A stretch of DNA of 64,000 nucleotides, taken from Modestobacter sp. VKM Ac-2986 (lineage in GTDB: Bacteria; Actinomycetota; Actinomycetes; Mycobacteriales; Geodermatophilaceae). Location of the stretch: assembly GCF_026967795.1 (NCBI RefSeq), contig NZ_JAPVBH010000006.1, positions 62,001 through 126,000 on the forward strand. The letters are read 5' to 3'. Of this stretch, positions 50,857 through 53,023 are shown in pieces. Position 1 is the first letter of the stretch, and every line of letters starts with the position of its first letter. The notes beneath the pieces are model-generated. The model worked only from the letters and a program-made list of their open reading frames with translations, was not told where the DNA came from and did no database searches. The translations under genes were made by a program, and so were the position numbers.

Positions 50857-51477
50857 GTGACCGTCCCACCCGCATCCCAGCCCCAGGCCGCCATGGTCGT
50901 CCCGCTGTTCTTCATCCGGCAGCGGATCACGGTGATGGTCAACCGCTACGAGGTCCGCGCGGCCAACCCCGACGGCACCGAGGGGCCGCTGATGGCCCTG
51001 GCCGAGCAGAAGCGGATGAAGCTGAAGGAGGAGGTGGTCTTCTACGCCGACGAGTCCAAGAGCCGCCGGGTGTTCTCCTTCAAGGCCCGTCAGGTGCTCG
51101 ACGTCAACGCGCAGCACGACGTGTTCGACGAGTACGGCGCCCCGCTGGGCATGTTCAGCAAGGAGTTCGGCGCCAGCCTGCTGCGCTCGACCTGGAAGCT
51201 GAGCGCGCCCGGCGTCGAGGCGGTCGGGCAGGAGCGCAAGCTCTCGATCGCCCTGCTGCGCCGGTTCTGGGACCTGATCCCCTACATCGGCGACATCTGG
51301 GTGCCCTTCGTCTTCCACTTCGACTTCCTCGACTCCAAGACCGGGGCGCCGGTGCTCACCAGCGAGCGCAAGATGGCCGTCCGCGACCGCTACACCGTCA
51401 CCGTCCCCGACCCGCGGCTGGACTTCCGCGTCGCCGCCTCCATGGCCGTCGCCCTGGACGCCCTGCAGAGCCGCTAG
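50857..51477 (+). CDS. LURP-one-related (LOR) family protein
   Basis: A 206-residue beta-rich protein of the LURP-one-related type, a tubby-like barrel fold. Visible pieces are FFIRQRITVMVNRYEVRAAN, LKEEVVFYADESKSRRVFSFKAR, VFDEYGAPLGMFSKEFG and a hydrophobic helix in the last third. The GTG at 50857 has GGGGAG upstream. Its TAG stop shares the bases CTAG with the stop of the convergent reverse transcriptase gene. Biological role unknown; membrane-phosphoinositide-like binding is known for tubby relatives only. Confidence 0.8.
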   Translation: MTVPPASQPQAAMVVPLFFIRQRITVMVNRYEVRAANPDGTEGPLMALAEQKRMKLKEEVVFYADESKSRRVFSFKARQVLDVNAQHDVFDEYGAPLGMFSKEFGASLLRSTWKLSAPGVEAVGQERKLSIALLRRFWDLIPYIGDIWVPFVFHFDFLDSKTGAPVLTSERKMAVRDRYTVTVPDPRLDFRVAASMAVALDALQSR

Positions 51478-52817
51478 TCCGCCGCGGCCCAGTCGATCCG
51501 CTCGGCGAGGGCGGCGAGCCGGGCGCCGAACACCGGGTCGAGCGACCCGGCCCAGGCGACGCGGCCCAGCACGTGGTCCCGGAAGGTGCCCGGGTCCCGG
51601 CCGCGCGTCTGGCCGGCCCACCCGTGGGTCGCGCAGTTGTGCAGCAGCGCCCGCAGCGCGTCGCGCTCCCGACGGGGCAGCGCAGGGTGCACGTTGACCA
51701 CCGCGCCGAGCACCGACTGCCGGCGACCCGCGCCGACCGCCGACGTCTTGGCCGGGTTGACCCGGAAGCCCTCCTCGGCCACCACCTCGGCGACCAGCCC
51801 GGCGAATCGCTCCCCGCCCACCGACCTCCCGCCGCTGAAGGTCAGGTCGTCGACGTAGCGGGTGTAGCGGGCGCCGTGCGACGCGGCCAGGGCGGTCAGC
51901 CGCCGGTCCAGCCGGAAGCAGACCAGGTTCGCCAGCGCCGGGGACGTCGGGGCGCCCTGGGGCAGGTGCGCGATCGCGAGGCGGCGGCCCAGCCGGTGGT
52001 GCCGGTCCCGCGCGTCGACGTCCGCGGGGACCGGCAGCGCCCGCCACACCTGCGCCGGGACGACGGTGGTCACCAGCCCGGTGACCACGTGTGCGACCGG
52101 CTCGGGCAGCCCGGCCGCGCCGAGCAGCAGCCCGTGCACCCGCCCGGCGGGGATGCCGGCGAAGAACGCCTCGAGGTCCATCCGCAGGACGACGGCGGAC
52201 CCGGCGTGCGGCGCCACCGCGGTGCGCACCGACCGTCCGGGCACGCACCCGTGCGCAGCGTCGTGGACGGGGACTGGCGCCAGCACGTGCCGCAGCAGCC
52301 GGCGCTGGGCCTCCTTGAGCCGGGGCTTCGGGGCGGCGAGCAGCCGGACGCCGTGCGGGCGGTCGACGGCGTGCCAGCGGTAGTGCCGCAGCGCCTCGCC
52401 CGCCGTGCGCTCCAGCCCCCGGGTGTCGGCGAACCAGGCGAGCTCGCCGGCGTCGACGTCCAGCAGCCGGGCCACCGCGGCCTGGTCGGGCAGGTCGGTG
52501 ACCGGGTGCCGCTGCCAGGCCAGCGTGGTCGGCACCGGCTGCCGGCGCACGACCCGGGGGAGCGGGGGAGCGGCATGACCGCGGGCGAAGCCCTGCGTGG
52601 TCCGGACGAAGCGGGACAGCTCCCGCGGCCGGTCGACCGGCGGGCGCGGGTGGGCGGTCTGCACCTCCCCGACCATCGTGCCGACCCAGGTCTGCGCGCG
52701 GGCCATGCCCAGGGAGACCGCGACCCGCCGGACCATCTCCCGGCGGCGCCACGGGCCGGCCAGCAGCGCGTCGGCGATCCCGGAGGCGGTCGCGGCGAGA
52801 GCGCGTTCGGTGCTCAC
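51474..52817 (-). CDS. Retron-type reverse transcriptase, divergent
   Basis: A 447-residue RT. Residues 1-105 are an extra N-terminal domain of unknown role. The RT core has LKEAQRRLLRHVLAPVPVHDAAHG (168-190), catalytic Asp214 in VLRMDLEAFF, LPQGAPTSPALANL (285-298), the YVDD box 321-324 in YTRYVDDLTFSGG, then EEGFRVNPAKTSA and RRQSVLGAVVN (365-375). These resemble retron enzymes. Two retron hallmarks are altered: the NAxxH motif is AVAPH (200-204) and the VTG triplet is VLG (369-371). Starts at the GTG at 52817, 13 bp from a structured inverted-repeat region, the expected place of an msr-msd RNA. Stop overlaps the LURP-one stop. Confidence 0.87.
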   Translation of the reverse strand: MSTERALAATASGIADALLAGPWRRREMVRRVAVSLGMARAQTWVGTMVGEVQTAHPRPPVDRPRELSRFVRTTQGFARGHAAPPLPRVVRRQPVPTTLAWQRHPVTDLPDQAAVARLLDVDAGELAWFADTRGLERTAGEALRHYRWHAVDRPHGVRLLAAPKPRLKEAQRRLLRHVLAPVPVHDAAHGCVPGRSVRTAVAPHAGSAVVLRMDLEAFFAGIPAGRVHGLLLGAAGLPEPVAHVVTGLVTTVVPAQVWRALPVPADVDARDRHHRLGRRLAIAHLPQGAPTSPALANLVCFRLDRRLTALAASHGARYTRYVDDLTFSGGRSVGGERFAGLVAEVVAEEGFRVNPAKTSAVGAGRRQSVLGAVVNVHPALPRRERDALRALLHNCATHGWAGQTRGRDPGTFRDHVLGRVAWAGSLDPVFGARLAALAERIDWAAAD

Positions 52818-52829
52818 CCGGCGGTGCGG

Positions 52830-52991
52830 GGTGCGCGACGGGGAGACCAGCCAGTCCCTGGGGGACGTGCCACTGGGTGCGCGGAGCGCACTGCATGGCT
52901 CATGACGCTGTGCCTGACCTCTTCACGGGTCCCCGGGGTGACCCCGGGGTGACCGGACGCTGCCGGTCGTCCTGGCCCCCCGTCGCGCACC
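52830..52991 (-). ncRNA. Candidate retron msr-msd RNA with 14-bp a1/a2 repeats
   Basis: A 162-nt segment directly upstream of the RT gene, bounded by perfect 14-nt inverted repeats at 52830-52843 and 52978-52991 (one arm GGTGCGCGACGGGG). Between them, on the minus strand, are a 6-bp hairpin with a 6-nt loop (52951-52968), overlapping copies of CCCCGGGGTGACC in an 11-bp period (52931-52954), a 6-bp hairpin (52877-52891) inside a 4-bp outer stem (52869-52899), and an 8-bp interrupted stem (52851-52876). Order and place match a retron a1-msr-msd-a2 layout. No canonical branch-site AGC right after a1 was seen, so the priming base is unknown. Confidence 0.6.
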
Positions 52992-53023
52992 GGCACACCG
53001 TAGGGGCTGCGGCACCCCGGCGA

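Follow-up and report, generated by a model that had tools for sequence, protein, structure and literature searches.

A structured RNA region on the minus strand of the window (i.e., the whole 64,000-nt stretch of Modestobacter sp. VKM Ac-2986 DNA analysed here) and the reverse transcriptase (RT) encoded next to it very probably make up a retron, which is the best explanation of the unit as described in whole and a kind of system that is already known. Observed for this unit are the RNA structure, its conservation through compensatory changes, a promoter-like box, the link to the RT and the retron-like predicted fold of the latter. The a1/a2 layout of retron msr-msd RNAs, which the original prediction had read from the letters of the region, is supported both by the conserved pairing and by the match of the RT in profile, sequence and predicted fold.

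Inverted repeat and fold of the RNA

The order of the elements on the minus strand is a1, 134 nt, a2, 12 nt and the GTG of the 447-aa RT (Table 1). The two 14-nt arms of the inverted repeat on which the original prediction rested are indeed fully complementary, with 134 nt between them, whereas the gap between a2 and the RT, given there as 13 bp, measures 12 bases (from 52830, the last base of a2, to the GTG at 52817). The repeat had also been estimated as unlikely to have arisen by chance, and this held when put into numbers: dinucleotide shuffling of the 305-nt upstream region never gave 14 bp, whether in 2000 shuffles at spans of 140-180 nt or in 1000 at any span of 40-305 nt, and three of the 1826 high-GC control tiles cut from the loci compared contain a perfect repeat of at least 14 bp at spans of 140-180 nt. 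The description of the region as structured likewise agrees with the folding energy of its minus strand, -125 kcal/mol (z = -3.8), which was equalled by none of 200 shuffles. The a1/a2 helix, moreover, exceeds the 14 bp originally reported, as it continues past a one-base bulge into the inner parts of both arms in the window genome, and in one relative (L071) amounts to 21 uninterrupted bp.

Table 1. Coordinates of the retron-like unit within the window, in ascending order.
Feature	Position	Strand	Basis or remark
Retron-type RT, 447 aa, RYVDD active site, helical N-terminal domain	51474..52817	-	PADLOC, RVT_1, predicted fold
a2 arm, 14-bp part of the original prediction	52830..52843	-	exact repeat; covariation in A1
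a2 inner part CTGGTC	52845..52850	-	pairs with 52972-52977
Small hairpin GTCCC CCA GGGAC beside a2	52854..52866	-	predicted DNA-template start
Predicted msd hairpin GCCA...TGGC, inner GTGCGC TCC GCGCAC	52869..52899	-	covariation, A1 and A2
msr stem-loop 2, CCCCGGGG TCA CCCCGGGG	52931..52949	-	98.2% of cells paired in A1
msr stem-loop 1, GACCGG...CCGGTC	52951..52968	-	all cells (100%) paired in A1, with a change on both sides in one pair
Predicted priming (branch) guanosine, last G of CAG before GACG	52972	-	homology; 52971 as the alternative
a1 inner part GGCCAG, conserved AG at its end	52972..52977	-	pairs with 52845-52850
a1 arm, 14-bp part of the original prediction	52978..52991	-	exact repeat; covariation in A1
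-10-like promoter box TACGGT	52997..53002	-	TANNNT conserved; transcription predicted to begin at the first a1 base or beside it

Conservation and covariation in relatives

Support for the retron reading had been expected to come from a1/a2 pairing that is conserved with compensatory changes in relatives, and precisely this was found in two alignments and with a covariance model (see below). A perfect repeat of at least 12 bp at spans of 140-180 nt lies upstream of 34 of the 54 homologous RTs (60 loci minus L033, a duplicate of L108, and the distant L102-L106) vs. 11 of the 1826 control tiles, and broken loci and interrupted helices are among the 20 homologues having no such repeat.

Alignment A1 consists of 28 Geodermatophilaceae RNAs (leaving out the broken-RT loci L032, L036 and L107-L109, as well as the duplicate L033), while alignment A2 consists of 16 more distant RNAs, including those of two Nocardioides loci and of three loci placed with these in the RT tree (leaving out L089, L091-L093, L110 and the plasmid loci). 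In A1, 94.6% of the cells are paired, and 12 pairs (eight of them in a1/a2) are changed on both sides, which amounts to 48 such cells; both counts were matched by none of 500 shuffles, and the count of “further standard pair types” was reached in 12 of the 500. A2 has 90.2% of its cells paired, with 22 pairs and 65 cells changed on both sides, and none of 500 shuffles came up to it in any measure. The shuffle control ignores the relatedness of the sequences, whereas a control in which the pairing partner is slid by 1-3 columns keeps it; pairing then falls from 94.6% to 40-48% in A1 and from 90.2% to 36-46% in A2, a comparison in which the structure, being derived from these same alignments, is favoured against the slides.

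The individual elements differ in how many of their pairs have changed on both sides: none in A1 and one in A2 for msr stem-loop 2, one of four in A1 and six of eight in A2 for the outer stem of the predicted msd hairpin, and two of five in A1 for the small hairpin beside a2, for which just 80.7% of the cells are paired.

The kinds of mispairs differ between the elements: the msd hairpin in A1 contains 17 A.C cells and no G.U, and the a1/a2 helix together with the msr contains 46 G.U and eight A.C. An A.C in RNA corresponds to a G.T in its DNA copy, so such a bias would fit selection acting on the DNA strand, which we take as a hint only, because 15 of the 17 A.C cells stem from one column pair and the picture is mixed both in the A2 msd (seven G.U, ten A.C) and in the small hairpin in A1 (eight G.U, four A.C). 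At one msd hairpin position (52890/52878, A1 columns 107/119), 16 of the 28 rows have no standard RNA pair, 15 of these being A.C, and the window itself has U-A. A Nocardioides RNA (L034:4757-4923) has its msd hairpin shortened by 10 nt that are kept in four close relatives, and this gap is, judging by comparison of the sequences, a natural deletion within the predicted template.

Covariance model of the RNA

A covariance model (R1) built from A1 gave one match each in 38 of the 112 family genomes, 37 of which belong to the 50 RT-positive ones; the match within the RT-negative list is in a 73% complete assembly (G104). Training sequences account for 28 of these 38 genome matches and ten are independent (G016, G020, G063, G065, G070, G071, G085, G093, G099 and G104). 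When 36 loci outside the training set were searched, 26 matched at E <= 0.01, three matched weakly at E 0.02-0.2 (L094, L099 and L100), and no match was obtained in the other seven (L090, L102-L106 and L117). These 36 include neither the A1 rows, whose match is a given, nor L033, L036 and the short duplicates that came up in the genome searches.

The 26 matches take in four Geodermatophilaceae loci in which the RT gene is broken and the RNA still whole, and reach out to Nocardioides, Tsukamurella (L113), a Dietzia plasmid (L115) and three Burkholderia replicons (L112, L114 and L116). Two of the Burkholderia RNAs (L112 and L116) have arms of 17 bp (14 of them Watson-Crick), a span of 166 and AAGC at the helix end, while their second stem, ACGGGG CTA CCCCGT, resembles the CCCCGGGG CAA CCCCGGGG of A1 in other letters. 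The RNA at broken-RT relatives (L032, L107, L108, L109 and G016) is nearly intact, scoring 117-155 bits with R1, which may mean that the RT is the first to break and the RNA decays later, or that assembly errors account for some of the breaks.

Rfam at gathering thresholds had no match anywhere in the window, and no Rfam 15 family matches the RNA; five matches to unrelated families that appeared when E values of up to 10 were allowed on the region are at chance level and were discarded. R1 can be used to find more members.

Predicted transcription start, priming site and mechanism

A TANNNT box is found 4-8 nt upstream of a1 at 38 of 46 loci vs. 86 of 23,000 random places in the same loci, with the eight loci missing it being L090, L093 and L095-L100; no -35 box could be recognised by eye in the sequences upstream of a1. 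As the -10-like box lies just before a1, the RNA probably starts at a1, which is what a retron needs.

The original prediction had remarked that AGC, the usual branch-site motif, does not follow a1 and that the priming site may differ from those of known retrons. AGC is indeed absent; however, a conserved AG occupies the very position at which known retrons have their priming guanosine. CAGGACG is invariant in 28 of the 28 A1 rows, and the A of its AG pairs with a U in all 28, whereas the A2 rows read GAG(A/G) in 15 of 16 cases and GAGC in the remaining one, and the AAGC of the two Burkholderia RNAs contains the usual AGC. According to the accessible portion of PMC6868368, the a1/a2 helix of retrons contains, or ends just before, the priming guanosine, and the known priming motifs are mostly TAGC, with CAGA, CAGC, GAGC and ACGC occurring as well; CAGG is absent from the motifs given in that portion. 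By analogy of position, the priming base is predicted to be the G at 52972 or, alternatively, at 52971.

From all this we infer how the unit would be transcribed, primed and copied, where its DNA would end, and what its role might be. A transcript beginning with the first bases of a1 would fold so that a1 pairs with a2, and the RT, which is encoded on that strand and probably translated from that very transcript, would bind the msr stem-loops. DNA synthesis would be primed by the 2' hydroxyl of the guanosine with which a1 ends on its inner side (predicted as 52972), and the RT would then copy the RNA just inside a2 and go on through the msd hairpin, so that a branched RNA-DNA molecule (msDNA) results.

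Distribution and inheritance

The RT is present in 16 of the 18 good Modestobacter genomes, 14 of which have one full-length match without stops and two (G016 and G020) only pieces, and in 48 of the 96 good genomes of the family when fragments are counted. Among 394 genomes drawn from the class, 18 match the RT, four of these only at 30-35% identity. In the RT tree (41 proteins), three other genera (g2, g3 and g4) each group together, as do 13 of the 14 rows of the window's own genus (g1), with the deeper forks among the four being weakly supported (81/80 and 82/72); a distant branch (L094-L100) is carried by other genera of the family. The exception within g1 (L082, in G008) has a g3-like RT at another genomic place, and its being closest to another genus while sitting at a different location indicates that transfer also happens, in this case likely within the family. 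The LOR gene is retained in G005 and G022, two genomes in which neither the RT nor the RNA was found and which may thus have a candidate empty site. Two loci (L102 in G398 and L106 on contig 5 of G086) have distant RTs of ~33% identity in longer ORFs (691 aa), which suggests a C-terminal extension; G086 also carries the RT type described for the window.

A phage-borne unit was considered and rejected, as the phage and viral-contig matches are all of low identity: of 50,697 phage records searched by tblastn, 14 matched, all below 60% identity and none counted with 80% coverage, and the best 80 of the 164 relatives from viral contigs reach at most 38% identity in their best segment. Plasmid records gave 95 matches, all below 60% identity, and the two of these with at least 80% coverage are both from Burkholderia (41%).

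The RT genes of several relatives are broken (e.g., in G016, G020, G065, G070 and G085), and half of the good family genomes have no RT match, both of which would be expected if the unit were a decaying retron relic serving no present function in these genomes. We nevertheless regard such a relic as improbable, since dN/dS of the RT lies at 0.16-0.29 for all but one of the 11 pairs (the exception having 0.43), the RNA has undergone compensatory changes, the promoter-like box is conserved, and the gene is full-length and free of stops in 14 of the 18 good genomes of the genus. The dN/dS values indicate that the RT is under purifying selection in Modestobacter, and the pattern of repeated loss and broken copies fits a defence role as well as it fits drift.

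Reverse transcriptase

Pfam places RVT_1 in the RT, the NCBIfam retron models match it below their cut-offs, and PADLOC gives RT_other (PDLC02949; 2e-161, 536 bits), RT_outgroup (PDLC03740; 1e-151, 504 bits) and, as the third match, RT_XIII (8e-82, 274 bits, residues 104-441). The PADLOC class is accordingly RT_other, i.e., untyped, with the type XIII profile not being the closest, and this class may be a broad one, because within a set of 14 control genomes that of Methanosarcina acetivorans is matched by RT_other too; of the 198 genomes drawn from the phylum, a single one had a match to it at E <= 1e-30, namely the window's own.

With phmmer, the best solved relative is the RT of retron Ec86 (4.5e-23). 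An AlphaFold2 model from 38 sequences (ten rows of an earlier set and 28 viral-contig RTs) reached a pLDDT of 89.1 and a pTM of 0.75, and replaced an earlier 16-sequence model that was poor (pLDDT 60.7, pTM 0.31) and was set aside. Retron RTs fill the first 18 rows of the Foldseek comparison of this model and the first 14 rows of VIA, where Ec86 (7v9x; Z 26.4, rmsd 4.5 over 294 residues) is followed by Eco2 (9lm3; Z 26.1, rmsd 2.7 over 290 residues); the G2L4 RT leads the non-retron rows (Z 19.3), and one retron chain (9l7p) stands lower, at Z 16.5. The predicted fold is thus closest to those of the Ec86, Eco2 and Eco8 RTs, with the match spanning approximately residues 103-447. Residues 1-96 are hardly covered by the fold comparison; the N-terminal helical domain (approximately residues 1-80) is modelled with block pLDDT values of 82-96, and some of its residues (e.g., DRPREL, 62-67) are the same in 16 of 16 aligned RTs.

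Two motifs typical of retron RTs are not present in their usual form, as the NAxxH of region X reads AVAPH (residues 200-204) and the VTG of region Y reads VLG (369-371), with H204 and G371 being invariant across the 38 aligned RTs. Each of the two motifs is reported in 14 of 16 validated retrons in the available part of PMC6868368, which makes them typical, not universal, and since some validated retrons do without them, they were not treated as required.

The RNA might instead be some other kind of template, comparable to those of DRT2/DRT9, in which no branch guanosine would be used for priming and the repeat would merely close the RNA. Such RTs, as described in the accessible parts of the literature, use a structured non-coding RNA too, the DRT2 RT is a weak match to the window RT in both sequence and fold, and the invisibility of an effector (see below) would suit this reading; the top rows of both fold comparisons, however, belong to retron RTs, DRT2 reaches Z 17.1 vs. 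26.4 for Ec86 (a gap to be read with the 16.5 of the one low retron chain in mind), and the AG at the inner end of a1 as well as the a1/a2 layout are those of retrons, all of which makes it very unlikely. Also very unlikely is that the hairpins are only a leader regulating translation or transcription of the RT, which would agree with a structure that directly precedes the start codon and would belong to the RT message, but not with an a1-a2 span that stays at ~154-171 nt among relatives while the arm letters change, nor with a distance from a2 to the expected RT start that varies (71 nt in L027, 30 nt in L075), nor with an architecture that equals msr-msd beside an enzyme that is a retron-type RT.

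Gene neighbourhood and possible role

If the unit is a retron, as we hold, a third component might be expected, as retrons typically consist of an RT, an RNA and a toxic effector (PMC12548924, as far as its available text goes). No effector was visible among the genes called within ~6 kb, and the RT is the only gene common across the locus groups. Genes were called in six frames by codon-position GC and clustered by blastp (leaving out L033 and L110), and the RT cluster covered 53 of 58 loci, a count reflecting rough gene calling (L037, L090 and L103-L105 are missing from it); the next largest clusters each comprise 13 loci, which without exception belong to the window's genus. These 13 loci share their flanks, comprising a luciferase-like oxidoreductase, a hypothetical gene and a gene (50890-51477) which, from reading its sequence, we take to be LURP-one-like, and outside the genus the surroundings of the RT differ. 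By Pfam, two of four downstream neighbours are permeases, a third is a nitrite/sulfite reductase-like protein and the fourth has no match; three of these four were scanned in PADLOC and gave zero matches. Within the genus, the LURP-one-like gene follows the RT in some genomes and precedes it in others, so either the retron unit or this gene has moved by one place. SpoIIE-type phosphatase genes occur near six loci at differing distances, a recurrence that was treated as background.

Seeing no linked effector, we would expect either that the RT with its N-terminal helical domain and the msDNA are the whole device, or that a partner is encoded elsewhere in the genome. The former leads to a possible, albeit doubtful, picture of a domesticated two-part retron, consisting of this RT and its msDNA with no toxic effector, inherited chromosomally within Geodermatophilaceae and performing a regular task of the cell and not abortive defence. 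Retrons lacking clear effector genes and, as a separate point, vertical inheritance in myxobacteria are both noted in the consulted part of PMC8867640. The alternative to such a domesticated retron is a defence retron whose partner lies elsewhere or within the N-terminal domain.

Comparison with known systems

No paper on retrons of Modestobacter or Geodermatophilaceae was found; a retron-type polymerase of Rhodococcus ruber Chol-4 is named in a legend (PMC6498646, in the portion seen). The RNA family, its promoter-like box and its reach were likewise not found in the retron literature searched, and the tables of the main classification may list the RNA. The family combines a well-conserved RNA with a promoter-like box before its first base, has relatives in Burkholderia and shows no visible linked effector; it offers concrete sequences for testing what an effector-unlinked retron does and, for genome editing, might serve as a high-GC actinobacterial source of templated single-stranded DNA.

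Among the systems already described, PADLOC RT_other and RT_outgroup are the best profile matches by far, covering nearly the whole protein including its N-terminal part, but these are RT profiles only and supply neither an RNA nor a partner gene. Type XIII, the third-best profile, reaches half the RT_other score (274 vs. 536 bits), and in the blastp gene clustering no gene besides the RT is common across the locus groups. The RT cores of Retron-Eco1 (Ec86) and Retron-Eco2 (Ec67) superpose on the window RT model, and Retron-Eco2 departs from AGC as well, having CAGA (PMC6868368, accessible portion); Eco1, however, was solved with its effector and Eco2 has a fused Toprim, going by the parts of the sources available, whereas no known fused or neighbouring effector is seen in the window, and the modelled window RT has a separate helical N-terminal domain, unlike either of them. 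Likened by description in the same portion of PMC6868368, Mxa1 (Mx162) and Sau1 (Sa163) share with the window an extended RT N-terminus and apparent vertical inheritance, with their priming motif being CAGC where that of the window is CAGG.
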